From Gemmata massiliana (GTDB taxonomy: Bacteria; Planctomycetota; Planctomycetia; Gemmatales; Gemmataceae), in the NCBI RefSeq assembly GCF_901538265.1, contig NZ_LR593886.1, forward strand, positions 9,259,738-9,323,737: DNA of 64,000 nucleotides. The letters are read 5' to 3'. Position numbers and translations under genes: made by a program. Within the stretch, counting starts at the first letter, position 1, and each line of letters opens with the position of its first letter. Of this stretch, positions 14,919 through 41,922 are shown one piece after another. The notes under the pieces are model-generated. The model was not told the origin of the DNA and ran no database searches. It saw only the letters and a list, made by a program, of their open reading frames with translations.

Positions 14919-14953
14919 AAAAACCTGCGGCCCGGGAATCGTACCCGGGCCGC
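14919..14953 (-). terminator. Intrinsic terminator of the chemoreceptor gene
   Basis: Read on the minus strand, the arms GCGGCCCGGG (14953-14944) and CCCGGGCCGC (14936-14927) pair around a seven-base loop and are followed by AGG and a run of five T (14923-14919). It lies 46 bp after the stop of the chemoreceptor gene. Confidence 0.8.
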
Positions 14954-14998
14954 GGTGCTTTTCTCACGGCGACCACCGCAGGTACTTTGCGCGTCCGT

Positions 14999-17323: not shown

Positions 17324-17362
17324 GGAACACCGTCCTTCGCGAATACTTAGGCCGTTACGCAC

Positions 17363-17946
17363 TAGAACAGCGGCATGGCTAGTGCATAAGCAAAATCAAT
17401 TGCCATTACAGGCTTCGCATTTCGACCCTAGTACAATGTGCAGATAAAAATCCGGGTTGAGGAGAAAATACGACATTTGCCAGTCTGCAAGAATATTGAG
17501 AAGGAATCAAAAGGGACGTGCCGATTTCTGGTACAGGTGTTCCTTCACGTCCCGATCTGGGAATAGTGCAGTAGGCGTTCAAGTTCGACGGGGCAAGCAA
17601 TTTGTGTCGGTGGCACTCGCACATTGTTCCACGGAGATGGAACGTTTGGCTTCTGAGCGTGTCGCACCGTTACTGTGTCTATAACCCCGATTGTTCCCTG
17701 TGGGGTACTTTTCGACTGGCCCGCCGGAAGGACCCGAAAAATTCGATTTGACTTTCCGATAATCGAGAGGCTGAGGATTTTGTTAGGTGCCGCAATTTAA
17801 ACGCCCGCCGCTTTGCTTCACTTGTAACGTTTTCCACGCACTCGATCGCGAAACACGTATTGGGTCAACGAGGCGTAACTGCAATTGTGGGCTTTGATTG
17901 CGTCATTTCAACGCAAGTCATTTTTGTCGCACAACACCCAAGACAT
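17363..17946. other. Gene-poor gap between chemoreceptor and efflux operon
   Basis: About 580 bp with visibly lower GC than the flanks. Short open frames on both strands lack ribosome sites and recognisable motifs. The right part should hold whatever ends the efflux operon, and the left part the promoter of the chemoreceptor gene; neither could be placed with confidence. Confidence 0.4.
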
Positions 17947-23815: not shown

Positions 23816-23889
23816 GTTAACTCCGCTTTTTACGCTGGTCCCGAAATTCACTTCAGGCCGCAGAACTTGTATCGGTCGCGTCGAACTGT

Positions 23890-24204
23890 TTAAGAAGTTT
23901 CGTCAGTACGTTCCGATTTTTCTTCACCGTCTTGGTGCCCGAAGTCGGCTGCCGCTACGATCTGCTCCCACACACCACTTCGGCGCCAGACGTCGGAGTA
24001 GTACCTCACGGTCGAGCGGTTCGGAAAGTGTGTTGGTAACCCGCGCCAGCCACAGTTCGTTGCGTGAAGGTAGCGGATCGCGTTGACGACCTCGCGCACG
24101 TCCACCTCGCGCCGGCGCCCGCCGGCTTGCGGCGCCGGGATCAGCGGTTCGACGGCCCGCCACTGCTCGTCCGTCAAGTCGCTCGGGTAAGGCGTTCTTT
24201 GCAT
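23890..24204 (-). mobile_element. IS5-family transposase remnant (N-terminal part only)
   Basis: The 104-residue frame begins MQRTPYPSDLTDEQW and continues LIPAPQAGGRRREVDVREVVNAIRYL, the opening of many IS5-group transposases. About residue 85 the match ends and a lysine/glutamate-rich tail follows. None of the DDE catalytic part is present, and WRGLPTHFPNRSTVRYY shows drift (usually WRMLP-HDFPPW). It is a dead fragment lying just upstream of the czc operon. Its upstream promoter could still influence the operon. Confidence 0.75.
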
Positions 24205-24310
24205 GTGTCACGACGCCCGCTGCCAACGGCTCCTCTTCCCCTCTGGTCCGATGTGCTCCGGCACCCGGTCGTTGATGCGAACATCCAAAAGATCATGCGG
24301 CACCCCGGAG

Positions 24311-27031: not shown

Positions 27032-27179
27032 GATGTCCTCCCGAGCCGCCGTCGGCTCTGGCTCGGATCGCGGTGACAGGTTCGGACGGGCAACGCACGC
27101 GCCGTGCCACAACGGAGCGGCGGCCCGGGCACACAAAACGTGGTTTTTCAGGCCCATTTCGAGCGCACCGGCGCTCGCG

Positions 27180-27230
27180 TCCGGGCATTTTGCCGCGAAC
27201 CGCTCCCGGCGCCCCCGCAAAATGCCCGGA
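27180..27230 (-). promoter_or_regulatory. Inverted repeat in the mgtA leader region
   Basis: TCCGGGCATTTTGC (27180-27193) and GCAAAATGCCCGGA (27217-27230) are exact 14-base inverted copies with a 23-base spacer rich in C. The structure sits between the stop of the lipoprotein gene (27237) and the mgtA start (27031), leaving about 150 bases of leader. It may end the upstream transcript or act as a leader structure for mgtA; no T run follows. Confidence 0.4.
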
Positions 27231-27236
27231 CACCGT

Positions 27237-27665
27237 CTACGGCCCGAGATCGATATCGAACGTCTGGGCGGCGCCCGTGACCCGACAGACGAGATCGGTG
27301 GTGGCCGGGTCACCATACTTCGCGTTCACGGGCGGGACCGGCGCGGCTTTCTTGGCGCCCGTGTACGGTTGCCCCCGGGACGTGCTTTTCGCGGCCGGGG
27401 GCAGCGGTTGGACGGTCACCTTCACCTCCCCGGATGGGCAGGCGTAAACGCGGTAGGTACCGTCCGGGCGGATGTCCGCGATCACGTTCCGCCCCGGCCG
27501 GTCGGGGTGATAGAACGTCACCTTGCCCGCCCGGATCGGTGTGCCCTGGAACGTCACCGTGCCGCTCACCTCCGCGCCCGCCCCGGGGCCGCAGCCCGCG
27601 ACGTGGGCCAGCGCCAGTAGACCGATAGCCAGGGGTACCGACCCACGGGTTCCATGCGTTCGCAT
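27237..27665 (-). CDS. Small planctomycete lipoprotein, carboxypeptidase-regulatory-like
   Basis: A 142-residue lipoprotein: signal segment ending HVAGC (lipid Cys25), then a single beta-sandwich-like domain with VSGTVTFQGTPIRAGKVTFY and GRNVIADIRPDGTYRVYACP, the pattern of carboxypeptidase-regulatory-like folds. Proteins of this type very often sit next to DUF1559 proteins in planctomycetes, as here (64 bp downstream of one). Function unknown. A GGAG box precedes the ATG at 27665. Confidence 0.75.
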   Translation of the reverse strand: MRTHGTRGSVPLAIGLLALAHVAGCGPGAGAEVSGTVTFQGTPIRAGKVTFYHPDRPGRNVIADIRPDGTYRVYACPSGEVKVTVQPLPPAAKSTSRGQPYTGAKKAAPVPPVNAKYGDPATTDLVCRVTGAAQTFDIDLGP

Positions 27666-27729
27666 TTCGGGCTCTCCAACGAGTACGAGAAGTGGCCACC
27701 CGCGCCCGTGAGCGCGGGCGAGAGTGGGG

Positions 27730-28731
27730 TCACCAGTCCGACCCGAGTACCAGGCCGTCGGCGGGGTTGATGGTGCGCCGCCAGGTGGTCAGGGAGATCG
27801 AGGCGCCGACGGTCCGGACGCTCCCGTCGAGCAGCGCCACGACCATGACCTGGGGGTGGAAGCTCTGGCACGTGTCCGGGTTCGCTTCCCGCGGGGTCGA
27901 GCCGATCTGCGGGGCCGGGTACATGCCGAACACGCCCGCCCCGGCCGAGGCGTCGAGGAAGTCCGGGTTCGGGTAGTGCGGGCCGTAGGTGTTGAAGTAC
28001 GCCGGGTACGCCCACGCCGTGAGCGCCTGGAACTCGTTGCTCGGGTTGTTCGGGTCGTAGCCCGGGGCCTGGAGGTAGGCGTAGGGGTAGTAGGCGGCCT
28101 GCTCGACCAGGGCGACGGTGTTCGACGCCCCGTCCGGCACGGTCGCGATCCGGTACCCGCACGGGCGCCCGCTCGGGTACGTATCGGGCGCGGCCCGCTG
28201 TGCGAGCGGTCGGTCGTCGTAGGCGGTACCGGACCCGAACAGGGCCAGGTTGTACGAGTAGTCGCAGGTCGCAACCGGGGTCGACAGGGTGTCCTCGGGG
28301 ACGAGCGGGGTCCGGTACCCGCCGACCGGGGACATGCCGTCCTGGTGGGTCGGGTCGCTCGGGCACTGGAACACTTTGAGCGGCACGAACCGGGCACCGA
28401 GGTACCCGCGGTCGGTGCTTGCCGTCTCGAACCGGCGGAACACGGCCCCTTGTTCCAGATGGTCCAACAGCGTGTAGTGGGCGCTGCCGACCACCGGTTT
28501 GCCGCCGACGGTCCGGACGTAGTTGACCGGCGGCAAGGCGCCGATGGTGGACTCGTAGTTGTGAACGGCGAGTGCGATTTGCTTCTGGTTGTTCGTACAC
28601 GTCATCCGCGCGGCGGCCTCGCGCACCTTCTGCACCGCGGGCAGGAGCAAGCCGATCAAGACCGCGATGATCGCGATGACCACCAGCAACTCGATCAGCG
28701 TGAACGCGCGACGTCTCATCTTTCCGGCCAT
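27730..28731 (-). CDS. DUF1559 protein with type IV pilin-like leader
   Basis: A 333-residue secreted protein of the planctomycete DUF1559 family. The leader [20 protein letters not shown] (residues about 6-25) is a prepilin signal; the residue before the cut is Ala rather than the usual Gly. [17 protein letters not shown] follows, then a pseudopilin-like head region and a C-terminal H-X9-DG style end ([18 protein letters not shown]). The ATG at 28731 has GGGAG upstream. Dozens of paralogues exist in planctomycete genomes and the role of the family is not established; major-pilin-like surface fibres are one idea. Confidence 0.9.
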
Positions 28732-28829
28732 TGAGAGCTCCCTCAGATCGGCAGGTCCGGTGCGCGCGACCTCCGGCGCGGCAGGCACACGGCCGCCACG
28801 GGCACCGAACGGGCGCCGGGGTTAACGGG

Positions 28830-30698
28830 TCAGAGGTCGGCGAGAAGTGAGATAACAATCCGCGTGCCACACCCGTCGTCGCCCGGTTCACAGGCGATCG
28901 AACCGCCGTGGGCCTTCACGATTTCGCGACACAAATACAAGCCGATTCCGGTTCCACGAACGCTTTCCGGGCCGCGATTGACGTGATGTTCGACCCGGAA
29001 AAATTTCTCGAAGACCCGTTCACGGAACTCGGCCGGAACCCCCGGCCCCTGGTCCGTCACGGTGATTCGCAGGGTGCCGGCGGCGCCGGTACGGGTATTT
29101 TGCCCGGACGACACCCGCGCCTCCACTGTGCCCCCGGACGCCGAATACTTGAGGGCGTTGGTCAGCACGTTGGCGACCACACTTCGCAGGCGCACGGGGT
29201 CGCCCCGGATGACCGGCCCGGTTTCGGTGCTCACGACCAACCGAACGCCGGCGTCGTCGAACCGGGTCTGCAGCGCCGCCCGGACCGTCGCCAGCACCGC
29301 GGCGGGATCGACCGGTGCGAGGTTCAGTCGCAACTGTCCGGCCTCGATCCGCGTCACGTCGAGCAACTCTTCGATGGTCAGCCCGAGTTCCTCGCACCCC
29401 TCCACGGCCGCGGCGAGCAGTTGCCGTTGCCGCTCCGCCATACCCACCGCCCCCTCACCGAGCATGAGCAAGTTCATTCGGAGCGCGGTCAGCGGCGACT
29501 TGAGCTCGTGTGAGGCGACCCCGATTAACTCGCTCCGCAACTCGTCCAGACGGGCGAACTCGGTCACGTCGTCCAGTACCGCGACCGCGCCGCACCGGTC
29601 GGGCGCGAACTCGGGGATCGGGACCGCGGTGAGCAGGAACCGGTGCGACTGTCCGTTGAGGACCGCGTTGAAAGTTCGACCGAAGTCGAGCCGGCGGGTG
29701 CCGGGGGGCTTGCCCGCGAGGGCGGCGATGACGGCCGCGCGGTGTTCGTCGGAAAAGGGCAGATCGGCGAGGCGGGTGGCGGGCTCACTCCGTTTCCCGG
29801 TTAGAAGCGCGCGGGCGGGCGGGGTCATCGCGACCAACTCGCCGTCCGGCCCGAACACGAGCACCGCATCGGGCAAGGCGTTGAGGGTGGCTTCCAGGGT
29901 GGTCTTGGCGGTCAGCAATTCGCCCAGGCTCGACCGCCGGTACTCGGCAAGGGCCTCGGCCATGCGGTTGAACCCGGTCCCGAGTTGACCGAGTTCGTCG
30001 GCCGTTATGTGCCGCACGCGCCGGTCGAAGTGCCCCGTGCGGATGTCTTCGACCGAGTCCGTCAGTTCCCGCACCGGCCCGAGCACGGAGCGGGCCAACC
30101 AGACCGCGACCCCGACGCCCAGGGCGACCGCCAAAACGGAAATCGCGACCACCAACCGTGTCCCGCGGGCGGCCTCGTCGCGGGCACGGACACCCGCCTG
30201 TTGCATCGACCGGAAGTTGGCCTCCCGGAGCTGGTCACAGCCGGCGGCCGCCTGACGGAGCAACGGGTTCACCTGCCGGTGGTACGCCTCCAGACCGCCG
30301 TTCTTGTCGCGGGCCAAGAGGCCGTCCCCGGCGCCCCGGTACCGGTCGATCTGGTGCCGCAGGGTCGCGGCGAGGGTTCGCTCGTCCTGCTCCCCGTCCC
30401 GCAACCGGCCGAGCAGTCGATCGAAGCCCTCGTCCCCCCGCCGGCGCTCCTCGGCGAGATCGCGGCGCGCCTTTTCGGTGTCCCCGCTGAGGAACAGTAA
30501 CAGCGCGTCGTCCTCGCGCTCCAAGGAGCTGTGCAGTTCGGCACTGAGGTCAATGGTTTCCTGGCTGTCCCTGAGGGCGCCGTCCACGACCGCGTTGAGC
30601 CGGATGAACGTGATCGCGCTCCACGCGCTGCTGCCGACCGTGGCGGCGACCAGAAGGGCGCCGGCGAGTACGAACCGGGTCTGGAGGCGTCCGGTCAT
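28830..30698 (-). CDS. Membrane sensor histidine kinase (HAMP-PAS-HisKA)
   Basis: A 622-residue kinase. Membrane helix 1 is at residues 9-33, a helical periplasmic sensor spans about 35-175, membrane helix 2 is about 181-203, HAMP 201-254, PAS 270-380, HisKA with His397 in ASHELKSPL, and an ATPase domain with NVLTNALKYS (N box), DQGPGVP (G1) and GTGIGLYL (G2). It phosphorylates the response regulator encoded just upstream; its start overlaps that gene's stop (ATGA). A longer frame upstream is only the shadow of the regulator gene. The signal is unknown. The downstream genes (DUF1559, lipoprotein, mgtA) are possible targets. Confidence 0.92.
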   Translation of the reverse strand: MTGRLQTRFVLAGALLVAATVGSSAWSAITFIRLNAVVDGALRDSQETIDLSAELHSSLEREDDALLLFLSGDTEKARRDLAEERRRGDEGFDRLLGRLRDGEQDERTLAATLRHQIDRYRGAGDGLLARDKNGGLEAYHRQVNPLLRQAAAGCDQLREANFRSMQQAGVRARDEAARGTRLVVAISVLAVALGVGVAVWLARSVLGPVRELTDSVEDIRTGHFDRRVRHITADELGQLGTGFNRMAEALAEYRRSSLGELLTAKTTLEATLNALPDAVLVFGPDGELVAMTPPARALLTGKRSEPATRLADLPFSDEHRAAVIAALAGKPPGTRRLDFGRTFNAVLNGQSHRFLLTAVPIPEFAPDRCGAVAVLDDVTEFARLDELRSELIGVASHELKSPLTALRMNLLMLGEGAVGMAERQRQLLAAAVEGCEELGLTIEELLDVTRIEAGQLRLNLAPVDPAAVLATVRAALQTRFDDAGVRLVVSTETGPVIRGDPVRLRSVVANVLTNALKYSASGGTVEARVSSGQNTRTGAAGTLRITVTDQGPGVPAEFRERVFEKFFRVEHHVNRGPESVRGTGIGLYLCREIVKAHGGSIACEPGDDGCGTRIVISLLADL

Positions 30699-32044
30699 GA
30701 CACGCCGTACCTCTTGCGCTTCCGCTGGAGCGTGGTCACGTCGATGCCCAGAACCCGGGCCGCGGCCTCGAACGACCCGGCCCGGGCGACCACGCGGGCG
30801 ATGTGCTCGCGCTCGATCTCCTCCAGCGACACGTCGGCCCCGAGTTCTAGGCCCGGCCCGCGAGCCGGTGCGAGGCCCAGGTCGGCCGCCTCGATCACCG
30901 CCGCCGGGCACAGGATCACCGCCCGCTCGACCCCGTTGCGGAGCTCCCGGAGGTTGCCCGGCCACGGGTGGGCGGCAATGGCCGCTTCGCACGCGGGGGA
31001 GAACGCGAGGTTGCGCCCCTGGCGGCGCTCGAAGAAGTTGAGGTAGTGGCGGGCCATCGGCAGCACGTCCTCGCGCCGGTCCCGCAGGGCCGGGGCGGTG
31101 AGGGTGATGACGTTCAAGCGGAAGAACAGATCCTCCCGGAACCGTCCGTCCCGGACGTCCGCCTCCAGCGCGCGGTTCGTGGCCGCGATCAGGCGCACGT
31201 CGGCCCGGCGCTCCCGGGCCTCCCCGACGCGCTCGTAGGTGCGATCGTTGAGGAACCGCAGGAGGCGCGCCTGGGCGTCCGCGTTCAGGTCGCCGACCTC
31301 GTCCAGAAAAAGGGTGCCGCCCTCGGCCTCTTCGACCTTGCCGACCGTATCGGTCACGGCCCCGGTGAACGCCCCCTTCTTGTGCCCGAACAGCACACTC
31401 GACATCAGTTCGTTGGACAACAGCGGGCAGTGAACGGTGACGAACGGCCCGTCCGGTCGGCGGCTGTGGCGCCGCACCCACCGGGCGAGAACCGTTTTAC
31501 CGGTGCCGCTCGCACCGCGGAGCAGTACCCCGGCGTCCGAAGCCGCGGCGCGGGCCACGGTCTGGAGGAAGGTCGCGTAGGCCGGGCTGCACGTCTCGAA
31601 ACTGCTCTCGCTCTCGGACTCCTCCAACCGGTCCTGGAGTTCGGTTAACTGGCGCTTGAGCACCCCGGCCGTAACCACCCGGCGGGCGGCGGTGCGCACC
31701 TGCTCCGGGGTGAACGGTTTGGGCAGGTAATCCACCGCGCCGAGTTTCATGGCCTCGACCGCGGATTCGTAGGTGGCGAAGGCGGTAACCACGATCACGC
31801 CGGCCCCCGGTTGGCGCCGCAGGATCTCGGGTAACACCGTCAGCCCGGACTCGGACCCGAGCCACAGGTCGAGAACGACGACGTCGAACCGGGAGCGGTC
31901 CAGGGCGTCGAGCGCGCCGGCCGGTGTCCCGACGTGCTGGACGCGCGCATTCTCCGCTTCCAGGCACAGCCGGATCGATTGTCGAATGGCCGGGTCGTCA
32001 TCGATCACCAGCGCGGACCAGGAAAGCTCCGTTGCCGTTACCAT
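30695..32044 (-). CDS. NtrC-family sigma-54-dependent response regulator
   Basis: A 449-residue regulator: receiver domain with acidic pocket DDD (15-17), phospho-acceptor Asp59 and Lys109; AAA+ domain with Walker A GASGTGKT (177-184), the sigma-54 contact loop GAFTGA (224-229) and Walker [11 protein letters not shown]; then a Fis-type helix-turn-helix ([21 protein letters not shown]) at the end. It activates sigma-54 promoters after phosphorylation by the kinase encoded next. The ATG at 32044 is the first one that gives a proper receiver domain; the longer frame upstream is not protein-like. No clear -24/-12 promoter was found near the candidate targets. Confidence 0.93.
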
Positions 32045-32295
32045 GTCACCGTCCCGAGAAACTCGCCGCTGACCGAAGGAGCCGATCTCCACTCCGACCG
32101 GCACGGTAATGGTACCTGTTTCTCGGCTCGTGAGTTTGTGTTGAGTTGGAGGTACGGCTCGCTCGGGGCGTCTTAAAGCACGCAAAGCGAGTTCGTCGGA
32201 AGTGATTATTGCAGCCGGTCCAGCACGAACGAATGCGGGCCGCGGAATCGGTCCCGCGGCCCACTGACCGAACGTTTTATTGAGCCGCCCGACCG

Positions 32296-32943
32296 CTACG
32301 GGCGCCGGCCCGAGAACGCCAGGTGTCCGGCCAACCCGATGAACACACAACCGGTTGCCCGATCCAACCACCGACCAACTCCCGATCGACGCTTCACCCA
32401 TTCGCCGACCGCTCCGGCGTAGTACCCCAGAACAACGAAGAGGAGCACCGTTACGAGCGTGAACAAAACGCCCAACAACGCGGCCTGCGACGCAACGGGT
32501 TTCGTTGTGTCCATGAACAGGGGAAGGAACGCGAGAAAGAACAGTCCGACCTTCGGGTTCAGTGCGTTCGATAGCGCCCCGCGACCCAGGTACGGCCAAA
32601 ACGATCCCGGCGCGTTCGCGCCACTCACCTCTTCGTGACCAACTTTCTTGAGAGAGCCCGCGTTGCGCAGCGCCTTGATTCCGAGGTACAGCAAGTAGGT
32701 TGCTCCCGCGTACTGGATAACCAGGAACGCCGTTCGAGAGGCGGCGACGAGAGCGGACAAGCCGACGACCGCCCAGAGCGTGTGTGTTAAACAACCGAGG
32801 CCGCAACCGATCGCGAACCCGATACCCGCACTTCGGCCCCTGGACATGCCCGTGCTGAGTACGGCAAGATTATCCGGGCCGGGAGAGGCCGCAATAACCA
32901 ACGAGGTTAGCAAAAAACTCATCAGCAAGTCCGTACTCGGCAT
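32296..32943 (-). CDS. LysE/RhtB-family amino-acid exporter
   Basis: A 215-residue membrane protein with about six helices. The family opening SPGPDNLAVLSTGMSRGR follows the first helix, and FLLTSLVIAASPGPDN is the usual LysE signature. GALSNALNPKVGLFFLAFLPLF near residue 140 is the second conserved motif. It should export amino acids or small amines; the substrate is not predictable. The ATG at 32943 has GGAG upstream and leads straight into the first helix. It stands alone, 250 bp from the response-regulator start. Confidence 0.87.
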   Translation of the reverse strand: MPSTDLLMSFLLTSLVIAASPGPDNLAVLSTGMSRGRSAGIGFAIGCGLGCLTHTLWAVVGLSALVAASRTAFLVIQYAGATYLLYLGIKALRNAGSLKKVGHEEVSGANAPGSFWPYLGRGALSNALNPKVGLFFLAFLPLFMDTTKPVASQAALLGVLFTLVTVLLFVVLGYYAGAVGEWVKRRSGVGRWLDRATGCVFIGLAGHLAFSGRRP

Positions 32944-33111
32944 CGACCTTCTCCGTGCTATCGCGGGGTGATTCCGAATATACCATCCGTCCTTCGAGCT
33001 CATTACAAGGCCGAGGCAAGAGGATTCCGCGCCGTGTAGGTGCTCGCGAGTTATTTCGGGTCGGGAGAAAATCCCGGACCACCTGTCGCCAAAACAAAGC
33101 CACTGTGCGAA

Positions 33112-34104
33112 TCACTCGGAAACGGTATTGAGTACCAGGTTCACCTCGGCCGCGGCGGGCGGCGGAACGTTTGCGCCTTCGCGCCGGGCCTGGAGCCGTT
33201 CGAGTTCGTGAAGGGTCGAGGTGAGCAGCCCGTGCAGATGGCGCTCGTACTTGGCAATGCGCTCGTCGCACCCGTTGGCGGGAAGCAGGCGCGCGGACCG
33301 GCTCCGGTCTGAGCGCCCATCGAGGAACCGTGCGACCGCGGTTGCTTCCCGCTCTAGGCGCTGGCCCTTGCGACCCAGTTCCTCGGCACGTGATTCCAGC
33401 TCCGCGCGCACGTGCTCGGCGAACAGCTCGACCGGTTCTCTGGTGAAGCGAGCATAGAGGGCTAACGCGCACCGGATCAATTCGGGCGTCCAAGGGGCGG
33501 TTTGCGGATTCGTGCCGGGTAATCCGAGCTTTCGCATGAACGACTTGCTCCCGAACGCGGGCGGATCGGTGCGCAGGTCGTCCGCAGCCTCGGCGCGCAC
33601 GCACGCGGTCCCCAAAATGTACTCAGCGATTGCGAAGGGAGCGGCAGTGGTAAGCTCCGACGCGAAGTAGTCCCGCGCCGCGCTCGCTTCGGCCAGTTCT
33701 CGCCGTGCGGTAAGTAACTCGCCGCGGATGGCCCGGAGTTGGTCCTCGCGCTGTGTGGAAGCGGGATCTTGGGACGGGAGGAACGCGGGCACCTCCACGT
33801 CCTCCATCGCCGCGGCAACGGTTTCGGCCTCGTACCGGGCTAGGCGCTGGAGGCGCCACAAGAGCAGCGCTGCTCGTTCCGCGAGGTTCAGCTCCAGTAG
33901 CCCGATTGGGGCGAGTGATTCGATCACCCCGGCCCGGTGGACCTGCCATTCGTCCGCGCTCTCGCCCGGGAGCACGGGCACGGCCGCGAAAATGCCGTGC
34001 TTGGTCGCGTTTCGGGCAACGATGGCCTTACCTTCGAGCGTGCGCGGCCCGGTGGAAAGCTGGCCGTTGCGCTGGTTCGCTTCGATCTTCGCGAGCGTCG
34101 TCAC
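33112..34104 (-). CDS. Uncharacterised protein with STGPRT / RNATKHG motifs
   Basis: A 330-residue protein from the GTG at 34104, which has a strong GGAGG box. The start ANQRNGQLSTGPRTLEGKA, then RNATKHGIFA, is a motif found at the N-terminus of an abundant family of unknown function, often annotated as hypothetical in planctomycetes and proteobacteria. The rest is charged and mostly helical with long Arg/Glu-rich segments (LRAIRGELLTARRELAEASAAR). The many Arg/Lys residues suggest nucleic-acid contact. It is the outermost gene of the integrase-side block, and no function is claimed. Confidence 0.65.
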   Translation of the reverse strand: MTTLAKIEANQRNGQLSTGPRTLEGKAIVARNATKHGIFAAVPVLPGESADEWQVHRAGVIESLAPIGLLELNLAERAALLLWRLQRLARYEAETVAAAMEDVEVPAFLPSQDPASTQREDQLRAIRGELLTARRELAEASAARDYFASELTTAAPFAIAEYILGTACVRAEAADDLRTDPPAFGSKSFMRKLGLPGTNPQTAPWTPELIRCALALYARFTREPVELFAEHVRAELESRAEELGRKGQRLEREATAVARFLDGRSDRSRSARLLPANGCDERIAKYERHLHGLLTSTLHELERLQARREGANVPPPAAAEVNLVLNTVSE

Positions 34105-34147
34105 GGATACCCTCCGAGAAATGAACACACGGTCCCGAATTGCGCGT

Positions 34148-34762
34148 TTATTGGCCCTTCGTCCTTCGGGCGGTGAATCGATCCAACCGCTTGCCGAGTC
34201 GGTCGAGGCGCTTCTGTTCGGCCGTCAGCACCTTGAGTGTGAGCCCGAGCTGCGAGACCGACATCCCGCGGATGTCACCGAAATCGTGGTGCGGACCGCG
34301 CCGGAGCGCGGCGTAGACCCGGCCGTCGCTCTCCTGGCGGCTCGTGTACGTGAGGTCGTGGCAGTACCGGCACCCGAAATAGGAGCCGCACAGGTACAGC
34401 TTGCGCACGCGCCGGGTACACGTCATACCGTTGCGCGTGAGCGGGCAGATGAACCACCAGCGCCGGCCGCCCAGGTGACACGTCGTGGCCACCAGTTCGA
34501 CCGCGTAGTCGAGTTTCTCGCGGCTCCGGGTCATCTGGTAATCGAGTCGGAGCACGCCACCCGTTTCACCGACCACGATCGTGTAACCCACCGCGGACGA
34601 CGGCTCGGATGCTCCTTTCCGGTACCACCTCAGTGTTCCGTTCCGGGCCGCGGGCCTGGGGACGAGTAACCCCATGCGTTTGAGCTCGGACGTGTCGAGG
34701 GCGGTACACCCCTCGACGCACACTTTCTTGGTCCAGCGCTGTCCGCTCCCGAAGCCACCCAT
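34148..34762 (-). CDS. Uncharacterised zinc-finger-like protein (MGGFGSG family)
   Basis: A 204-residue protein beginning MGGFGSGQRW, the start of a family met repeatedly on plasmids and integrative elements and still of unknown function. The middle holds a metal-binding-looking pattern: WFICPLTRNGMTCTRRVRKLY, then CGSYFGCRYCHDL, giving Cys pairs spaced like a treble-clef or zinc ribbon. The tail is basic. GGGGAG precedes the ATG. Its neighbour downstream is 43 bp away on the same strand. It is a plausible DNA-binding element protein. Confidence 0.65.
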   Translation of the reverse strand: MGGFGSGQRWTKKVCVEGCTALDTSELKRMGLLVPRPAARNGTLRWYRKGASEPSSAVGYTIVVGETGGVLRLDYQMTRSREKLDYAVELVATTCHLGGRRWWFICPLTRNGMTCTRRVRKLYLCGSYFGCRYCHDLTYTSRQESDGRVYAALRRGPHHDFGDIRGMSVSQLGLTLKVLTAEQKRLDRLGKRLDRFTARRTKGQ

Positions 34763-34940
34763 CGTTGCTCCCCGGATTTTCCGAAATCAATTGTTCGTTG
34801 CGCTCGGCTCGGCCGAGTGCTTTCGGCGTAAAAGCTTACATTTTCGGCCCTTGCACGCGAATCCCGCCCGGGTCACGTGTCTCACATTTGCGCGTGCCAA
34901 CCACTCGTTCGGGTCGTCTGTTTGCTGGACCGGGCGCGAA

Positions 34941-35342
34941 TTACATGGTTCCGAGCCGGTGAACCGTTGTGACGAACCTCTCAATCGCGTTCCGAAACGC
35001 CCTCGGATCGTGCGCCACGTGTGCGCGGTACACCGCTTCGGCTGCCGTATCGATCTCCGGGCACCGCCCGTTCACGCCCAGTGCCTCGACGAGTGCGTCG
35101 GCCTCGAACATTAACCGGTGAGCGGCGTGCTGGTCCCAAGCCGCGCCCGCTTCAGGTTCCGGACGGTCGAACTGTTCGCGCTCGACGGTCAGGATCGCGA
35201 CTAGCGCAGGCAAATGAGCTCGGATGTCCTCGCGATCGGCGGGCGCGAGAGCGGTCGCGGGTTGCACCACGAGTTTGCCCGCGACGACAGAAAGTGCGAG
35301 CCCCCGGCGCCGGAGGGTTACGAGCAGGTCGGTGGCACTCAT
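34941..35342 (-). CDS. Small protein with TubC-like N-terminal docking domain
   Basis: A 133-residue protein from the ATG at 35342; its start overlaps the stop of the primase-like gene (ATGA), and GAGGTG precedes it. The first 50 residues (MSATDLLVTLRRRGLALSV, then LAPADREDIRAHLPALVAIL) match the TubC N-terminal domain, known as a docking domain in megasynthases but also common at the end of mobile-element replication genes. The rest is helical and unrecognised. Translational coupling points to a partnership with the Toprim-helicase protein. Confidence 0.65.
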   Translation of the reverse strand: MSATDLLVTLRRRGLALSVVAGKLVVQPATALAPADREDIRAHLPALVAILTVEREQFDRPEPEAGAAWDQHAAHRLMFEADALVEALGVNGRCPEIDTAAEAVYRAHVAHDPRAFRNAIERFVTTVHRLGTM

Positions 35343-38239
35343 GGAGTGAACACCTCCACGTCGTTCGTGAGTGCGCGGTCTGCGGAGTTCTCGCTCTCCC
35401 CACTGGGGGAAACCGGGACAGTCGGGACACCCGGGACGGAACCCGTGTTTTCCGGGGCGCGCGTCCCGGTTGGCTGTCCCGGTTCCGGACCGGCATGCGA
35501 GAAACCGGGACGAGAAACCGGGACACTTTGGGCTGTATTCGCGGCCCCGCGTCCCGGGTGTCCCGACTGTCCCGGTTTCCCCAACAGGAAGGACGGGGCC
35601 AGCACCAGGACGCGCCGGCGCGCGCCTTCGAGAGTGATCGGGTACGTAGTTCGATCGCCGTCGGTTCGGACCGCGTACCCGCTCTCCTTGAGCCGGCGGT
35701 ACAGGGTTTGTTGCGTGATCGGGTACGCTTGTCCCTGTTCGCGGGCCAGTTCTGACAACGCAGCAAAGGTGCTGTCCGGGTCCAGGTACAGCTCGGCGTC
35801 CGTGACCCACCCGAGCTTGCGCCCGCGCCCGTGGGAGCCGACGCGAACCTCACCGAGCGCGCCGCGGGTTTCGCGGACCTCCCAGCCCCACGCCTCGGGG
35901 GACGGCGGGACACCCGGTTCCTTACCGTCGGTGCCGGCAATGTGCCCGCGCCCGCTGGTGATGATCGCCCCGAGCATTTCGGGAAACCGGGCTACCGGAT
36001 CGGCCGCGCGCTGGTGCTCGCCCTGCTGCTCGGCCAGGGACCGGAACGCGACCTCACCCCGACCCCAGAGCCGCTCGCGCTCGGGCGTGTCGATGGCGCG
36101 GATCGCTTCGGCGAACCGCAGCAGGTACCGTAGCCCGAGGAGCAAGTTGGCGATGATGTCCGGGGTACGGGCGTGCGGGAACTGGCCCACGAACCGGTTC
36201 CGCAACTGGACCCGCTCGGCCTCGAGTTCGGCGCGGACGGTCGCGTACCGCGGGGCCAGCCACGCGACGAACCCGGCCATTGCGGACGCGAGCGCCCCGG
36301 CAGCGGCGTTTTGCTGGCACTCCGAGAGGCGCGCGAGGTTCACGTCGCCGCGCTGGACCGCGACCACACCCAATCGGGCCGTGATGGAGTGGCCGCGCGG
36401 CACGTCCTCGCCGGTCGCCAGAACCAGCCCGCGCGGGGGCTTGGGCGGGCGCAGGGTGCCGTCGGCCCGCATGCGCTGGCGCCCGGCACTGTTGCCCTGC
36501 CCGCGGATCAGGCGCTCGGCCGTGCGGTGCTGCCGGTCCGCATCGGCCCGAGAGGGCGGGGGCGCGAAGTCGTCGACCACCAGGACCGCGTCCTTGACAG
36601 TAAACGCGAGCCTCTCGAGCGCGTTGTCGGTCGAGGACCAGTTCCCGGGGAGCCGGCCCCGGTTCATGTCCGCGCCGTAGTGCTGCTGGGCCAGGGCCGC
36701 GAGTTCGCTCTTCTGCGCCCCGGTCGGCCCGGACAGCCAGAGCGCGTAGTCGGGCGCCCCCAGCGCGGCCCGGTAGACCGTCGCCAGCAACGGGAACGCG
36801 ACCCCATCCGGGACCAGACCGACGAGCAGTCCCAGCGACGCACGGACCGCGGTTCGGCGCGCGTCACCGGTCGGCGGTTCGGGCAACCGGAACGCGCTCG
36901 CGGCGCCGTCGAGTTGGACCTCCACTCTGGGCGAAACCGGGACCGTCGGGACACCCGGGACGATCGCCCCCGCGCCGTGCAGGTAGCACCAGCGCCCCTC
37001 GACCTCGCGCCACCCGGTGTGGGTGTAGACCGTGGCCGACGGGATCTCGTCCCCGCTCATTTCCTGAATCGCGCACCGCAGGTGGTCGCGTTTGCCGCTC
37101 CCGGCCTGGATCACGCACTTCGGCCCGAGGCGCTCGACCACCCAGTCGAGCGCCCCGAACCGGTCCACGGGCACCCCGACCGTGCGGGCCGGTTTGTTCC
37201 ACTGCTCGACCGCGACCGCGAACGCGCGGGTCTGCTCGGCCCCGTCATCGGTCACCGTTTCGCCTACGATCCGCGCGGTGAAATTGGCGAGCTTCGTTTT
37301 CTTGGTCACGGTCAGCTCGTCCGTGTCTTCGTCGCGCGTGAGCACGCAGTGGAACGTGTTCCCGCTCACTGCGGTGTACCCGCTCTCGGTAAACTGCGCG
37401 GGATCGGTGCGAGGCTTCTCGGGCGACGCGGGGGCGTGCCCGACGAGTTCGCGGAGCGCACCGGCGCCATGACGGACGAGGAAGTCGTCGAGGCCGTTCT
37501 TGGTCCCGTCCGGCTCGGTCGGGAGCCGGACCACTCGCACGTCGGCGCCGTGCCGCCGGAGTGCGCCCGCCAGTGCCCGTTCCGCGCGGGCGACATCGGG
37601 GTTGGTGCCCGCGTCGCTGTCGAAGACGATGTGAACCCGGCGCCCGGTCCAGGTGACGCCCGCGAGGTCGTCGTTCAGGGCCAGCCGGCCGGTCCTCTTG
37701 CCGCCCCTCTGCTCGCGCGGCGCGACCCAGTTCCAGACCCCCGGCAGGGACACGCACGGGAACCCGTGTTGGGTCGCCGCGAGCGCCTTCTTGCATCCCT
37801 CCGTGATGGTGAGTTCCGCGGTCGGGTCCGCGAGTGCCGCGCGGGCGCCGGCCGGGACGTACAGCCGATTCGGACGCCCGCGCGGGTTCTCATACTTGAC
37901 CTTACCGGGCTTGTCGCCCCGGGCGCGCGGGCGGTCCGGTTTCACGGTCGCATGGTCCAGCGGTTGGCCCCCGCGATCGTAGTGCGGGTACACCAGCACG
38001 GGGCCGAGAGCCTTGGCGCGGGCGGGGCTCCAGTTGAGGAGCCGGGCCACGACCTTCGGATCGTCCTCGGAGTGGACGTTGTTGGCAGTGGTGGTTTCGC
38101 GGGACAGCCCGGACGCCTCGAGTTCCGCTGCGTGGTTCGGGCGCAAGCGGTCCGCTTCCGGCCCGTCCGGAGCGCCACCCGGCGGCTCTGGCGAACCACG
38201 ATTGCAATCGTCAGATTCGCTTGGTACATTCAATTCCAT
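35339..38239 (-). CDS. Toprim-helicase (DUF3854/DUF927-like) primase-type protein
   Basis: A 966-residue protein from the ATG at 38239 with a perfect GGAGGA box. The N-terminal half holds a Toprim-like DUF3854 unit: Glu147 in TITEGCKKA, and Asp207/Asp209 in IVFDSDAG. Around 280-420 is a DUF927-like segment (CVIQAGSGKRDHLRCAI). A helicase-type ATPase follows with Walker A GPTGAQKS (504-511) and Walker B VLVVDDF (about 553-558). Such proteins drive replication of plasmids, phages and integrative elements. The last 120 residues are low-complexity Pro/Gly/Ser built from short DNA repeats (see the 35406, 35551 and 36933 entries). The small coupled gene follows directly. Confidence 0.82.
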   Translation of the reverse strand: MELNVPSESDDCNRGSPEPPGGAPDGPEADRLRPNHAAELEASGLSRETTTANNVHSEDDPKVVARLLNWSPARAKALGPVLVYPHYDRGGQPLDHATVKPDRPRARGDKPGKVKYENPRGRPNRLYVPAGARAALADPTAELTITEGCKKALAATQHGFPCVSLPGVWNWVAPREQRGGKRTGRLALNDDLAGVTWTGRRVHIVFDSDAGTNPDVARAERALAGALRRHGADVRVVRLPTEPDGTKNGLDDFLVRHGAGALRELVGHAPASPEKPRTDPAQFTESGYTAVSGNTFHCVLTRDEDTDELTVTKKTKLANFTARIVGETVTDDGAEQTRAFAVAVEQWNKPARTVGVPVDRFGALDWVVERLGPKCVIQAGSGKRDHLRCAIQEMSGDEIPSATVYTHTGWREVEGRWCYLHGAGAIVPGVPTVPVSPRVEVQLDGAASAFRLPEPPTGDARRTAVRASLGLLVGLVPDGVAFPLLATVYRAALGAPDYALWLSGPTGAQKSELAALAQQHYGADMNRGRLPGNWSSTDNALERLAFTVKDAVLVVDDFAPPPSRADADRQHRTAERLIRGQGNSAGRQRMRADGTLRPPKPPRGLVLATGEDVPRGHSITARLGVVAVQRGDVNLARLSECQQNAAAGALASAMAGFVAWLAPRYATVRAELEAERVQLRNRFVGQFPHARTPDIIANLLLGLRYLLRFAEAIRAIDTPERERLWGRGEVAFRSLAEQQGEHQRAADPVARFPEMLGAIITSGRGHIAGTDGKEPGVPPSPEAWGWEVRETRGALGEVRVGSHGRGRKLGWVTDAELYLDPDSTFAALSELAREQGQAYPITQQTLYRRLKESGYAVRTDGDRTTYPITLEGARRRVLVLAPSFLLGKPGQSGHPGRGAANTAQSVPVSRPGFSHAGPEPGQPTGTRAPENTGSVPGVPTVPVSPSGESENSADRALTNDVEVFTP
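35406..35437. repeat. In-coding repeat, copy 1
   Basis: A GGGAC-rich 32-base unit inside the primase-like gene, exactly inverted at 35551-35582 and present again (29 bases, one mismatch) at 36933-36961. In the reading frame it encodes the peptide GVPTVPVSP. Confidence 0.8.
35551..35582. repeat. In-coding repeat, copy 2 (inverted)
   Basis: The exact reverse complement of 35406-35437, 113 bases away, in the same gene. In this orientation the reading frame encodes GKPGQSGHPGRG. Transcripts could fold the two copies into a long hairpin. Further CCGGGAC pieces lie between them (35469-35478, 35493-35500, 35509-35523). Confidence 0.8.
36933..36961. repeat. In-coding repeat, copy 3
   Basis: Same orientation as copy 1, with one mismatch (A to C) in 29 bases; encodes PGVPTVPVSP (residues 428-437) between the DUF927-like and ATPase parts of the protein. 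Confidence 0.78.
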
Positions 38240-38307
38240 TGGTTCCTCCGATCGGTCCGGGGCGTCCGTGACGCGGTGCCCCGGGCCGATTGCGTTGGTG
38301 GGATCGG

Positions 38308-38685
38308 CTACGCGCCCATCTTCTTGAGCGCGGCGACCGCCCGTTCGGAGGCGCGCGTGCGGGCCGCAGATGTGCGCGGCACGACGGGAGTTACGACCGG
38401 TGTCGGGTCCGCGGCCGCGGTCAGGGCCGCAACGAACCGGGCCACGGCCCCGCGGGACGTGAGCCACCGGCCGCCGACGCGAACCGCTTCCAGTTTCACG
38501 ACCGCCCCGGCCGCGGTCCGGGTGCCCTTGGTGCGCCAGCGGAACACGGTGGACGGGTCCACGGCCGCGCCCCCGCGGTGCCCCGGGAACAACCGGCCCG
38601 CGGCGGACAGGGACAGGCCCGCGCCCGCCTGGATCTCGGCGAGCACTTGGGGCACGGTTCCGACTTCGGGAACGACTTCGGCCAT
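38308..38685 (-). CDS. DUF1580 excisionase-like helix-turn-helix protein
   Basis: A 125-residue protein from the ATG at 38685 with GAGGAGG upstream. The middle AGRLFPGHRGG, DPSTVFRWRTKGTR, LEAVRVGGRWLTSRGAVARFVAAL is the DUF1580 pattern seen in planctomycetes: a helix-turn-helix that begins with row-selection residues like those of AlpA/excisionase proteins, followed by an Ala/Thr-rich tail. It lies between the integrase side and the primase-like gene and may serve as recombination directionality factor or regulator of the element; that role is inferred. A longer overlapping frame (to 39423) is a shadow of the next gene. Confidence 0.75.
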   Translation of the reverse strand: MAEVVPEVGTVPQVLAEIQAGAGLSLSAAGRLFPGHRGGAAVDPSTVFRWRTKGTRTAAGAVVKLEAVRVGGRWLTSRGAVARFVAALTAAADPTPVVTPVVPRTSAARTRASERAVAALKKMGA

Positions 38686-38753
38686 TGCGAACCTCCTCGC
38701 ACGGAATGCGACGCGGTTCACAATGGCCGATGGTGCGCGGGCGAGCGGAGACG

Positions 38754-40370
38754 CTAGGGATGATCGAGGGATGATTTGCGCACGCGGCCCAGGAGCGCGA
38801 TCCCGCCTGGCGTGATCGCGACGCCTTTGCGCCCCCCGTTGGGGCGCGCCGCCAAGCCCTTCTCGACCAGCGCGATCACCGCGTGGCCGACGGTCTGTTT
38901 GCTCAGATCGGTCGCCACTTCGAGGTCCACGTTCTTGAGCAGAAGTGGGTGCTGGGTCTTCAATTCCCGGAGTATCTTCAGTTCCGCTTCGTTGATCGAG
39001 AGTTCCCCCGCGACCGAGTTCGAGCCGGCCGCATTCAATTCTCCCAACACTCCGGCGGGTACAAGGGTGCGCTCGGCCGGCCACACATAGGCCGTGTTGC
39101 CGAGCTCGGGCACGGCCACGGTGCGGAGCATGTGAACCGCCCGGCTGACCTGTTGGCGCATGCGCCGCACGAGCCCGGCCACGTCCGGGGCGGGTACCAG
39201 TTGGAGGTGGGTCACGGCCGCGTGCTCGGGCACGATCCGGAGCACGACGTGCCCGATCGCATCGTTCACTCTTCGGATCGCGGCTAGGGCCTCGTGGTGA
39301 GCACAGCCCTGTGTGTCGGTGACCGCTTGAAGTTGCGACTCGACTTCGAGGTACCGCTGGTTCGCGGCCCCGATGCACTGTGCCAGAGTTCTGGCAGTTT
39401 CGCGAAACGCACCCGCGCCCCACGGTGGGTCGCGCCGGAACTCGGCCACGTCAAAGAGTGCCTGCGCGACGGCCTCGTATGCGCCGCGGAGGTGGGCGGG
39501 CGTTCCCGCGGGCGCCTCGAGCGGGTGGTCCCGCGTATCGACGTCCTCGGGTCCGATTCCGAGTTGGGCCACGCGGTCCAGTTGCGCGAGCCGAGCTTCG
39601 ACCCCGACCCGGACCGCGCGCCAGTTGGACAGCCACTGTTCCCCGTCGGCCCTAGAAACGATCAACTCGGCCGCCGATCCACAGACCGGCAGTGCGGCTG
39701 GGCCGTGCGGACGGCTCTGAAAGGCACGCGGGTTCGTGACGACCGGTGGGAGGGGAATGTTGAGGGCCTGGGTCAAGCCGTACACGCGCTCGGCGAGCGC
39801 GTCGAACGTCGAGCGTTCTTGGGTCGGGAGTACGTGACCGGTCCGCGCTCCCGTGATGTACGGCCCGACCCGCTTCGTCATTGAAACGAGTGCGTTTCTC
39901 AGTTCGCGGAGCGTACCCCATTCGGGCGGGCGCGGCCGAAAGAACCACGCGGGCGCGAGTTCACACCGGCAGCGCGTTTGGGGGCGGGCCTGGTGTCCCA
40001 CCCAGTGGAGCGACTCATCGGAGCCGATGAGCCCCAGCTCACGGAAGTGGCACTCGATTTCCGCGAGCAGGTCGCCGGGCGGGTGGAGTTCGAGAGGGAG
40101 TTTCGGCTCCGCGTGCGGACAGATCGACGGGAGCGAGTACCGCGTACACTTGATGTTGTTGCGGTAGACGTCGAGGTGTTCGCCGCTGGACAATCGGATC
40201 GTGTCCACGAGGGCGCTCGTGCAGTCCCAAACGCCCTCTTTGTCTCCGATCGGATCGACCGCGTACCCTGCGAATAATTCGGGCGCGAGGTCGATTCGTG
40301 GGTGTTTGTGTGTCGCACCGGGGAATAGTTCACGGCGAGTACGAAATAGCGCCGGCCAACTCATCGGCAT
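38754..40370 (-). CDS. Unknown 538-residue element protein with winged-helix end
   Basis: No family is recognised for most of this protein. The first 150 residues hold several Cys/His (ICPHAE, CRCELAP). Residues 150-420 are mainly helical (LARTLAQCIGAANQRYLEVESQLQ style). The last 85 residues look like a winged helix: LSINEAELKILRELKTQHPLLL, VATDLSKQTVGHAVIALVEKGL and then GGRKGVAITPGG as the wing. AGGTGA precedes the ATG at 40370. It lies between the DUF1580 gene and the integrase on the same strand. A DNA-binding controller of the element is a reasonable guess; nothing more is claimed. Confidence 0.7.
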   Translation of the reverse strand: MPMSWPALFRTRRELFPGATHKHPRIDLAPELFAGYAVDPIGDKEGVWDCTSALVDTIRLSSGEHLDVYRNNIKCTRYSLPSICPHAEPKLPLELHPPGDLLAEIECHFRELGLIGSDESLHWVGHQARPQTRCRCELAPAWFFRPRPPEWGTLRELRNALVSMTKRVGPYITGARTGHVLPTQERSTFDALAERVYGLTQALNIPLPPVVTNPRAFQSRPHGPAALPVCGSAAELIVSRADGEQWLSNWRAVRVGVEARLAQLDRVAQLGIGPEDVDTRDHPLEAPAGTPAHLRGAYEAVAQALFDVAEFRRDPPWGAGAFRETARTLAQCIGAANQRYLEVESQLQAVTDTQGCAHHEALAAIRRVNDAIGHVVLRIVPEHAAVTHLQLVPAPDVAGLVRRMRQQVSRAVHMLRTVAVPELGNTAYVWPAERTLVPAGVLGELNAAGSNSVAGELSINEAELKILRELKTQHPLLLKNVDLEVATDLSKQTVGHAVIALVEKGLAARPNGGRKGVAITPGGIALLGRVRKSSLDHP

Positions 40371-41848: not shown

Positions 41849-41893
41849 AGTGGGTCCGGTGGGAGTCGAACCCACTTCCAAGGTGTTATGAGC
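41849..41893. repeat. Right att-like block within the tRNA gene, 45 bp
   Basis: Identical to 226-270 in direct orientation. It comprises the 3' half of the complete tRNA gene, so that insertion leaves the tRNA functional. The integrase gene is 116 bp away. Confidence 0.85.
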
Positions 41894-41922
41894 ACCCTGC
41901 TCGACCGTTGAGCTTCAGACCC
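41851..41922 (-). tRNA. tRNA with anticodon CAT (tRNA-Met or lysidine tRNA-Ile)
   Basis: Reading the minus strand from 41922: acceptor GGGTCTG pairs with CGGACCC; D arm GCTC/GAGC with a short loop holding GG; anticodon stem GGGTG/CACCT with loop CTCATAA giving anticodon CAT; T arm GTGGG-TTCGACT-CCCAC; discriminator A; CCA not encoded. Position 8 is A rather than the nearly universal T and the D loop is only seven bases, which is unusual. Whether it is elongator Met, initiator-like or the Ile tRNA modified with lysidine cannot be decided by eye; lack of three G-C pairs closing the anticodon stem argues against initiator. Confidence 0.8.

Follow-up and report, generated by a model that had tools for sequence, protein, structure and literature searches.

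An integrative island at tRNA-Met

We analysed 64,000 nucleotides of Gemmata massiliana DNA (contig NZ_LR593886.1, positions 9,259,738 to 9,323,737), referred to here as the window. Six open reading frames, together with an integrase gene, lie on the minus strand beside a tRNA-Met gene, and all seven are open. The features are listed below in window coordinates, with strand where one applies.

226..270, minus: distal 45-bp att copy, matching the tRNA-Met 3′ end exactly; left boundary of element A
695..33003: cargo, from the distal att to the module
33112..34104, minus: RNATKHG protein, no known family
34148..34762, minus: MGGFGSG protein, possible zinc ribbon; same position in several relatives
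34941..35342, minus: TubC-like β-hairpin docking (bHD) protein, 133 residues; 4-nt overlap with the primase gene
35339..38239, minus: primase-helicase, 966 residues; DUF3854 (Toprim) and a DUF927-like half
35342..35365, minus: codes for NDVEVFTP, the C-terminal tail of the primase and a predicted docking peptide
35406..35438: first arm of the iteron array, candidate origin; three GGGAC units with a 9-bp period
35550..35582: second arm of the iteron array, 111 bp from the first and its exact reverse complement
36920..36962: further copy of the array (91%), the third, at an internal position
38246..38300: 55-bp spacer, 87.5% identical to the sequence 5′ of the element C primase gene
38308..38685, minus: HTH protein with DUF1580; occupies the AlpA/excisionase position
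38754..40370, minus: protein X, 538 residues; weak C-terminal winged helix
40534..41733, minus: tyrosine integrase, 399 residues; Pfam Phage_integrase, 1.2e-14
41849..41893, minus: att core at the tRNA-Met 3′ end; right end of element A
41850..41922, minus: tRNA-Met (CAT), integration target, located with ARAGORN

The 45-bp att sequence is present in four identical copies, all in one orientation, and these mark out a tandem array of three elements (A, B and C). Element A is inserted in tRNA-Met and runs from 226 to 41893 (41.6 kb), boundaries that are established from the sequence. The extent originally predicted, 33112–40370, was therefore too small; it left out the cargo and the tandem arrangement. 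Near 32260, beside the module, the sole short att match (13 bp) was inverted and at chance level, and was dismissed. The cargo of element A includes sulfatases, RND efflux with an outer-membrane channel, a P-type ATPase, a chemoreceptor, a porin, a two-component system and LysE. Pfam scans of 20 of the 30 called genes of element A found no phage structural or lytic genes and none of the relaxase or type IV secretion genes that mark an integrative conjugative element. Element B, which uses the same att, is a prophage with terminase, portal, head and tail genes. Elements A and C have both ends in common (1368 bp at 88% and 213 bp at 77%), and their integrases are 90% identical. A sister element in another genome (G010) follows the plan of element A, is 47.3 kb long and carries CRISPR-Cas as cargo.

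The six genes are the tRNA-proximal control and replication (lifecycle) module of this island. They are co-directional, as predicted. They precede the integrase only in plus-strand coordinates, and in the direction of transcription they lie downstream of it. The order integrase, protein X, DUF1580, primase-helicase, TubC-like, MGGFGSG, RNATKHG was found again at other Gemmataceae loci. These loci adjoin related integrases and several are at tRNA genes. Hence, the genes do occur together, and the proposal of a recurrent planctomycete family of integrative elements is upheld. The two genes at the end of this order are less tightly associated with the rest: many RNATKHG relatives sit apart from any primase match. 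At one further locus (L064) the module order is present and the docking gene is absent.

Genes of the module

The primase-helicase matches DUF3854 above the Pfam cutoff (1.6e-23) and DUF927 just below it (1.6e-4). Walker motifs of the DUF927-like half were identified by eye. Far from being lost in homologues, the Toprim residues E147, D207 and D209 are unchanged in all 15 that were aligned. The DUF3854 match, Toprim residues and helicase-type half together bear out the Toprim-helicase identity assigned at the outset. A sequence search of the primase against solved structures gave no match. DUF3854 primases are not confined to islands of this type. They are found in many phyla and in IMG/VR (the best 80 of 289 relatives there) and can neighbour genes for phage structural proteins; at one locus (L047) the primase gene adjoins terminase and portal genes. 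Two papers describe DUF3854 proteins that support autonomous plasmid replication (PMC10079941, PMC6066503). For one such plasmid, rolling-circle replication has been reported (PMC10079941), and so the priming role of the DUF3854 protein is not certain.

The DUF1580 protein has the predicted identity (Pfam 7e-9, above cutoff). In 9 of the 10 loci with a DUF1580 match, its gene immediately precedes that of the primase; at the tenth, L049, there is primase homology without a gene call. No mention of DUF1580 was found in the open-access papers searched. The winged-helix end ascribed to protein X amounts to a weak MarR-like match (0.02, below the Pfam cutoff), and in relatives its slot is occupied by differing, mosaic proteins. 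Protein X is likely to be a regulator, and both it and the DUF1580 protein are classed as regulators only by position and HTH. Likewise, the zinc finger proposed for the MGGFGSG protein is a weak match (zf-CHY, 0.014, below cutoff). The RNATKHG protein, which probably starts at the GTG at 34104, is indeed uncharacterised: Pfam gave no above-cutoff match, and searches of PHROGs and NCBIfam at E 0.1 gave no match. Patterns built from this one sequence, and thus weak, gave 7 matches in IMG/VR and 0 confirmed relatives.

Inverted iteron arrays inside the primase gene

At its 3′ end the primase gene contains two arrays of 9-bp iterons, each 33 bp long, that form a perfect inverted pair. The two arms encode different peptides. 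The array motif occurs three times in 10.1 Mb, always within the window primase gene. Since it is restricted to that gene genome-wide, we rejected the reading of the array as a dispersed mobile repeat. The element C primase gene has perfect 27-bp arms built from another motif, and the architecture also recurs in homologues with other motifs and the same 9-bp period. With an inverted-repeat score of at least 18, a threshold set after the discovery loci had been inspected, arrays were detected in 12 of 33 primase gene ends and 2 of 247 other genes. In loci fetched later the figures were 5/39 genome loci and 1/400 controls. Below the threshold were 21 of the 33 gene ends, including L065 and L078, which share the same upstream order, as well as 34 of the 39 later genome loci and, among the matches listed, 72 of 73 IMG/VR loci. 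The DNA between the arms is 32% AT, and thus not AT-rich. Their architecture makes the inverted arrays a candidate origin within the rep gene itself.

A docking domain behind the primase and a predicted docking tail

The TubC-like gene overlaps the primase gene by 4 nt, in line with the predicted translational coupling. As a single sequence, its product matches TubC_N below cutoff (0.017). Conversely, a profile of 13 relatives matched solved structures of NRPS/PKS docking domains: 6cgo (7e-10), EpoB (5e-6), AerJ (1.4e-4) and TubC (1.2e-3). The predicted model, with pLDDT of about 95 for residues 1–50 and 85 to residue 60, has an α-β-β-α-α fold; the second half of the protein is poorly modelled. 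The nine best Foldseek matches were all NRPS/PKS docking domains, at E values no better than 6e-3, and a VIA structural comparison gave Z up to 8.1. Judged by sequence profile and predicted fold, the protein is an NRPS-type β-hairpin docking domain. Such domains were directly behind a primase gene in 24 of 25 matches (L078 and L059 by inspection). Among the IMG/VR matches listed, none of the 72 loci with complete primase genes had a docking partner.

The partner primase-helicases end in acidic tails that resemble NRPS docking peptides. Tail motifs, defined after inspection of the discovery loci, were present in 16 of 280 genes, all of them primase genes or 3′ halves of broken primase genes. 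Later searches supplied 13 docking proteins outside NRPS/PKS-like frames and six family loci. Eight NRPS/PKS-like rows were assigned by reading the sequence rather than by family search, and L054, L056, L061, L062 and L070, which were found again, were not recounted. Leaving out L242, which has no adjacent open reading frame, gave 18 upstream genes (that of L240 is 183 nt away). The last 8 residues, read from the DNA, held at least two acidic residues in 15 of these 18 (15/19 with L242 as a miss), compared with 18 of 70 coupled controls. At least three were present in 8/18 pairs and 2/70 controls, and an aromatic plus acidic tail in 13/18 and 2/70. The 70 controls remained from 74 once repeats and a duplicate call of the window primase gene had been removed. 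Our first statistics for these searches covered 10 of the 13 docking proteins, without L229, L236 and L242. Because the sequences are related, P values are not independent.

The acidic-aromatic tail is missing from 3 of 10 variant-1 primases (L055, L070 and L129). There is also a second, oppositely charged form of the docking domain, and the tail paired with it, likewise a second type, is basic. Across 29 pairs (L058, L059 and L129 left out), tail charge and docking hairpin charge were inversely correlated (rho −0.81), with hairpin segments cut at fixed residues after hand trimming and some shifted by a few residues. Among the open-access papers searched, none joins TubC, docking domain and primase, and the four listed as combining three of the subjects docking domain, phage, helicase and TubC deal with other topics, judged by title and abstract. 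Neither the docking tail nor the candidate in-gene origin was part of the original prediction.

Comparison with known systems

The module was first described as belonging to no named class. The element is nevertheless a variation on a known type, because DUF3854 Reps are known from plasmids (CyRepA) and the layout of integrase, regulator, primase and origin is that of PICI/PICMI satellites. Gram-negative PICIs and PICMIs have the order integrase, regulator/AlpA, primase and a single transcription direction, and their primase gene has two iteron sets on its 3′ side (PMC6092414, PMC10803314, PMC10111431). Element A has an integrase, a primase, one transcription direction and two 3′-side iteron sets. 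However, its arrays are inside the 3′ end of the gene, no AT-rich stretch separates them, DUF1580 replaces the AlpA Pfams and the primase has a docking-domain partner. PICIs and PICMIs measure 10–20 kb, and Gram-negative PICIs about 12–15 kb, unlike element A and its sister; PICI att sites are never used by prophages, whereas element A shares its att with element B. The island is predicted to work like a PICI or P4-type satellite, yet departs from PICIs in size, att and the AT-rich origin.

The α protein of phage P4 is a primase-helicase whose C-terminal DNA-binding part acts on short iterons at two separated sites, both outside its gene. By description, element A is alike in having a primase-helicase and iterons at two separated sites, but differs in that its iterons are inside the gene. 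In phage lambda the origin iterons are within the initiator gene O. Element A shares this placement, with an unrelated initiator and 9-bp inverted arrays at the 3′ end. CyRepA of cyanobacterial plasmids also joins an N-terminal DUF3854 Toprim-like domain to a helicase-type domain, there of DEXD type rather than DUF927-like; it belongs to a plasmid, not an integrated element, and the cited excerpts describe no docking partner (PMC10079941, PMC6066503). The bHD-SLiM pairs of NRPS/PKS systems (TubC, EpoB, AerJ, Kj12) have the same α-β-β-α-α domain, and there the upstream gene encodes a product that ends in a charged/hydrophobic peptide (PMC9113145). In element A, the predicted partner is instead a DNA primase-helicase, and the domain is carried by a small protein that an integrative element encodes.

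Proposed mechanism and alternatives

The sequence itself establishes where the element ends, how its genes are ordered and which motifs they have, how the iterons are laid out, what the docking domain is and that the tail is conserved. We infer the following cycle of excision, origin activity and docking. The integrase and the DUF1580 excision/regulatory protein would excise the island between two 45-bp att copies. The primase-helicase would bind the 9-bp iterons in its own gene (the 3′ inverted pair and the internal copy), open and prime the excised circle, and so replicate it. The co-translated TubC-like protein would bind the tail NDVEVFTP by β-strand addition, like NRPS β-hairpin docking domains. 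Through its second domain it would bridge the replicase to another factor; alternatively, it would regulate the replicase. We consider it probable that the module serves the 41.6-kb island in this way, with excision, an in-gene iteron origin and a docking partner.

The arrays could instead be RNA structures, or a mobile intragenic repeat, that control how the coupled small gene is translated or how stable its message is. The perfect inverted repeats formed by the arms lie just 5′ of that gene, and hairpins are possible at L079 and L070, where the arms are only 12 nt and 1 nt apart. We consider this unlikely. The arms are direct arrays of 9-bp period, that period is constant while motifs vary between elements, and spacing ranges from 1 to about 235 nt across loci; the window gene has a third copy 1.3 kb upstream, and confinement to one gene argues against a mobile repeat. 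The conserved tail might similarly reflect a Shine-Dalgarno sequence and the start of the overlapping gene, not docking, since the window tail codons GTG GAG GTG include GGAGGTG, some 10 nt ahead of the ATG of that gene. Similarly overlapping or abutting control pairs mostly lack such tails, and tail charge tracks docking hairpin charge, which makes this explanation very improbable.

A decayed prophage, in which a temperate phage lost its structural genes, gained cargo and left its early region as the module, is a doubtful source. Element B is a prophage, and the L047 primase adjoins terminase and portal genes. Conversely, the integrase, att copies and primase of element A are intact, and the sister element repeats its plan with other cargo. 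In element C and L065 a small terminase gene directly follows the primase gene, as in some satellites. An ordinary resident island, whose replication genes are relics without a present role, would fit the variability of protein X. This seems quite unlikely, given the intact state of the catalytic residues, the iteron arms, the tail and the 4-nt coupling.

Returning to the lifecycle module, we lean slightly towards a broader reading. Mobile elements of planctomycetes and other phyla may have adopted, or may share the ancestry of, the β-hairpin docking of antibiotic assembly lines, and use it to couple a primase-helicase with a partner translated alongside it. There would be two or more docking codes, charge-swapped and possibly orthogonal, and each element would carry its own iteron word. 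As that word is inside the initiator gene, an exchange of modules could alter the specificity for origin and partner at the same time. The analysis identifies a recurrent island family, one member of which carries CRISPR-Cas and another metal-efflux cargo. If the proposal is correct, a docking system that the cited papers describe from NRPS/PKS assembly lines has a further role in organising how mobile elements replicate their DNA, and natural charge-swapped docking pairs could serve as tools. Planctomycetes would gain candidate minimal replicons, each a rep gene with a built-in origin.

The att repeat delimits three tandem elements in one tRNA-Met gene

All six ORFs of the original prediction, and the integrase gene, were found on the minus strand of the window (bases 9259738-9323737 of one 10.1-Mb contig). 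The features are as follows.

226-270, repeat of the tRNA-Met final bases
33112-34104, minus, RNATKHG protein
34148-34762, minus, MGGFGSG protein
34941-35342, minus, TubC-like protein (133 aa)
35339-38239, minus, primase-helicase (966 aa)
38308-38685, minus, DUF1580 protein
38754-40370, minus, 538-aa protein
40534-41733, minus, integrase
41850-41922, tRNA-Met

The 28-base core of the att repeat has four exact genomic copies in one orientation (9094108, 9169591, 9259965 and 9301588), and all four are identical over the whole 45 bp. Between these copies, three elements stand in tandem, namely A (41.6 kb, in the window), B (90.4 kb) and C (75.5 kb). The trio occupies ~207 kb in a single tRNA-Met (G000:C1 9094106-9301630, the genome of the window), and window 226-41893 is its last element. 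Elements A and C share a right end of 1368 bp that includes the integrase gene (88%) and a left end of 213 bp (77%). Hence, A is bounded as an element and not as a small module. The predicted module is real, but the element to which it belongs is much larger.

Element B is a prophage: it encodes an integrase of its own together with a large terminase, portal, head protein and tape measure. Element C has type I-G CRISPR-Cas effector genes. Element A carries as cargo, among other genes, sulfatases, a P-type ATPase, a chemoreceptor, a porin and an RND pump together with its outer-membrane channel. A scan of 20 of its 30 called genes showed no relaxase and no structural gene. Within this cargo, a fragment at window 23890-24177 reads by eye like the N-terminus of an IS5-type transposase.

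The module order recurs beside other integrases

Searches of 95 Gemmataceae genomes gave matches to the primase-helicase (35), the integrase (53, at E <= 1e-40), the RNATKHG protein (23) and the 538-aa protein (8). A primase gene was called in 33 of 36 fetched stretches. The expected gene order was encountered beside integrases elsewhere. Locus L056, at a tRNA-Arg, has the complete order integrase, 723-aa protein, DUF1580, primase, TubC-like, MGGFGSG and RNATKHG. At locus L078 the order is the same and the TubC-like protein is a variant one; L061, at a tRNA-Met, has the first five genes. At L064 and L065 the order is integrase, intervening protein, DUF1580 and primase, with no TubC-like gene behind the primase gene. 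The gene separating integrase from DUF1580 is a mosaic; its DNA-binding end varies among relatives. DUF1580 relatives occur at 10 loci and the primase gene is next downstream in nine; at the tenth, L049, primase homology comes next with no gene call there. In a related element, L076, the pre-primase position encodes a protein with a weak HTH_17 match (1.5e-4, under cutoff). According to PMC10803314, HTH_17 is among the Pfams standing for AlpA in the PICMI model.

The island containing L061, L265 and L266 (G010:C1 5831695-5879041) is a sister of element A. It has the same module, 47.3 kb between att copies, and type I-B CRISPR-Cas as cargo. Behind it lie a second att, another integrase and a DUF1580 gene, so that this is another tandem array. 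At L254 (G087:C1 7226294-7229670) an integrase with 65% identity has behind it, within 2 kb, no more than the 3' part of a primase gene and a docking gene. This is apparently an internal deletion that spared the primase tail (GDVEVFAP) and its partner. Element C, L065 and L117 each have a gene for a terminase small subunit behind that of the primase. L117 is a 10.2-kb Henriciella element (about 4880-15162) flanked by 46-bp att repeats. It includes an integrase (by eye), a DUF3854 primase and a small terminase, and it looks like a classical satellite.

The primase gene contains a candidate origin

In the window module, Pfam recognised the integrase, DUF1580 and DUF3854; DUF927 fell slightly under cutoff. 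The top PHROGs matches of the 966-aa protein were DNA primase families (1.8e-6). Its Toprim residues (E147, D207 and D209), from which self-replication had been proposed, are invariant, not lost, across the 15 homologues that were aligned. Of ten homologues scanned for domains, nine contain the DUF3854 half, fused to DUF927, DUF3987, DUF5906 or a half with no Pfam match; the tenth, L067, joins PriCT_2 to DUF927. The DUF927-like half of the window protein (35339-38239) is 28% like proteins annotated as telomere-binding in Rhodococcus linear plasmids. For cyanobacterial plasmids, DUF3854 proteins are described as supporting autonomous replication, and rolling-circle replication is reported for one such plasmid (PMC10079941, PMC6066503).

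Within the final 250 bases of the window primase gene, an arm at 35406-35438 is the perfect reverse complement of a second arm at 35550-35582. Both have three GGGAC units with a period of 9 bp. The encoded peptides differ (VPGVPTVPVS and GKPGQSGHPG) and, therefore, what the arms share is DNA, not peptide. A third copy is at 36920-36962, and a whole-genome search allowing up to 3 mismatches found the pattern nowhere beyond the copies in this gene. L061, L062 and L064 keep the arrays despite a divergent encoded tail; the full set is absent from L065 and the truncated L063. Other relatives follow the same plan with different words: GGATGTGGA in L056 and CTGGTGATA in L079. The element C primase, which has no DUF3854 match, has perfect 27-bp arms with another word.

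With an inverted-repeat score defined after the first array examples, 12 of 33 primase gene ends reached the threshold of at least 18, compared with 2 of 247 other genes. Of these two, one consists of a run of N and the second, L052, matches the final 396 residues of the L053 primase at 94% identity, which makes it the 3' half of a primase gene that has been broken. For loci fetched later, the counts were 5/39 from genomes (including L107, a repeat of L050), 1/73 from viral contigs and 1/400 for controls.

The TubC-like protein is predicted to dock on the primase tail

Matches of a profile of the TubC-like proteins to solved NRPS/PKS docking domains bear out the TubC-like assignment of the small coupled protein. 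In the AlphaFold model, confidence is high over roughly the first 58 residues (alpha-beta-beta-alpha-alpha) and poor for the rest. The first nine Foldseek matches were NRPS/PKS docking domains, with a best E of 6e-3 and none below 1e-3. VIA Z for such matches reached 8.1 across 55-60 residues, which alone is middling. According to a review (PMC9113145), the bHD domain takes up a C-terminal peptide shorter than 15 residues, which binds as a beta strand and forms salt bridges.

The domain is directly downstream of the primase gene at 22 of 137 loci with complete primase genes, a set in which L107 and L109 repeat other loci. Inspection added L078 and L059, and at one locus (L075) the domain lies elsewhere. 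No IMG/VR locus had it among the 72 with complete primase genes, which were drawn from the best 80 of 289 relatives.

Primases partnered by the window-type domain (variant 1) end in NDVEVFTP, NDVEVFAP, NDEELF, EDVVEFLP, DDYEVF or, in Armatimonadetes, DDVEVFRP and DDAEVF; partners L055, L070 and L129 lack such tails. For the opposite-charge domain (variant 2), R[YF]x[SNG][DNP] lies within the final 30 residues in 11 of 12 partner primases. The twelfth, L059, is a split gene with the motif on its 3' half. In a set of 280 genes encoding 200 aa or more, 5 have the first motif and 11 the second; every one of these is a primase gene or the 3' half of one that is broken.

A variant-1 search of 392 planctomycete genomes found 21 places, in 18 genomes, besides the window's own: 8 in NRPS/PKS-like frames, 12 small proteins and 1 longer protein. 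In the NRPS/PKS-like frames, some upstream subunits end in peptides like SEDVEEFTI and DDVEFEEF. The longer protein, at L229 (G459:C106), opens with the docking domain behind a gene that by eye looks phage-structural and ends DGDQWGSV; docking may thus occur in other phage modules too. Ten later places have a clear partner (DUF3987 in 4, DUF3631 in 2, Pfam-less in 4); L242 has no adjacent upstream ORF. At least three of the final 8 residues are acidic in 8 of these 10 tails, compared with 16 of 280 genes.

The Shine-Dalgarno sequence of the overlapping gene, rather than docking, could account for such tails. We consider this unlikely because such tails are commoner in the later-found pairs than in 70 distinct control pairs of genes with the same kind of overlap or abutment. 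Two loci omitted before and six further family loci bring the ten tails to 18. At least two acidic residues in the final 8 were present in 15/18 tails and 18/70 controls; an aromatic plus acidic tail was present in 13/18 and 2/70. The misses are L236, L255 and L259. Docking is also consistent with an inverse relation of hairpin charge to tail charge (rho -0.81, n=29 pairs; variant 2 flips both signs), although, since the sequences are related, the tail and charge statistics are support and not a probability.

Relation to phage satellites

PICIs are described as having two iteron sets 3' of the primase gene around an AT-rich stretch (PMC6092414). In element A, the 111 bp between the arms are 32% AT and thus lack this feature. 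Element A is not filed as a PICI because it departs from that class in size, att exclusivity and AT-rich origin.

Most likely, the integrase, aided by the DUF1580 protein, would excise element A, and the primase-helicase would initiate replication on iterons within its own gene. The putatively docked TubC-like partner would then link the replicase to a further factor, or regulate it. Element B shares this att and is, by position only, a possible helper. Element A would work like a PICI-type satellite or a P4-like element.
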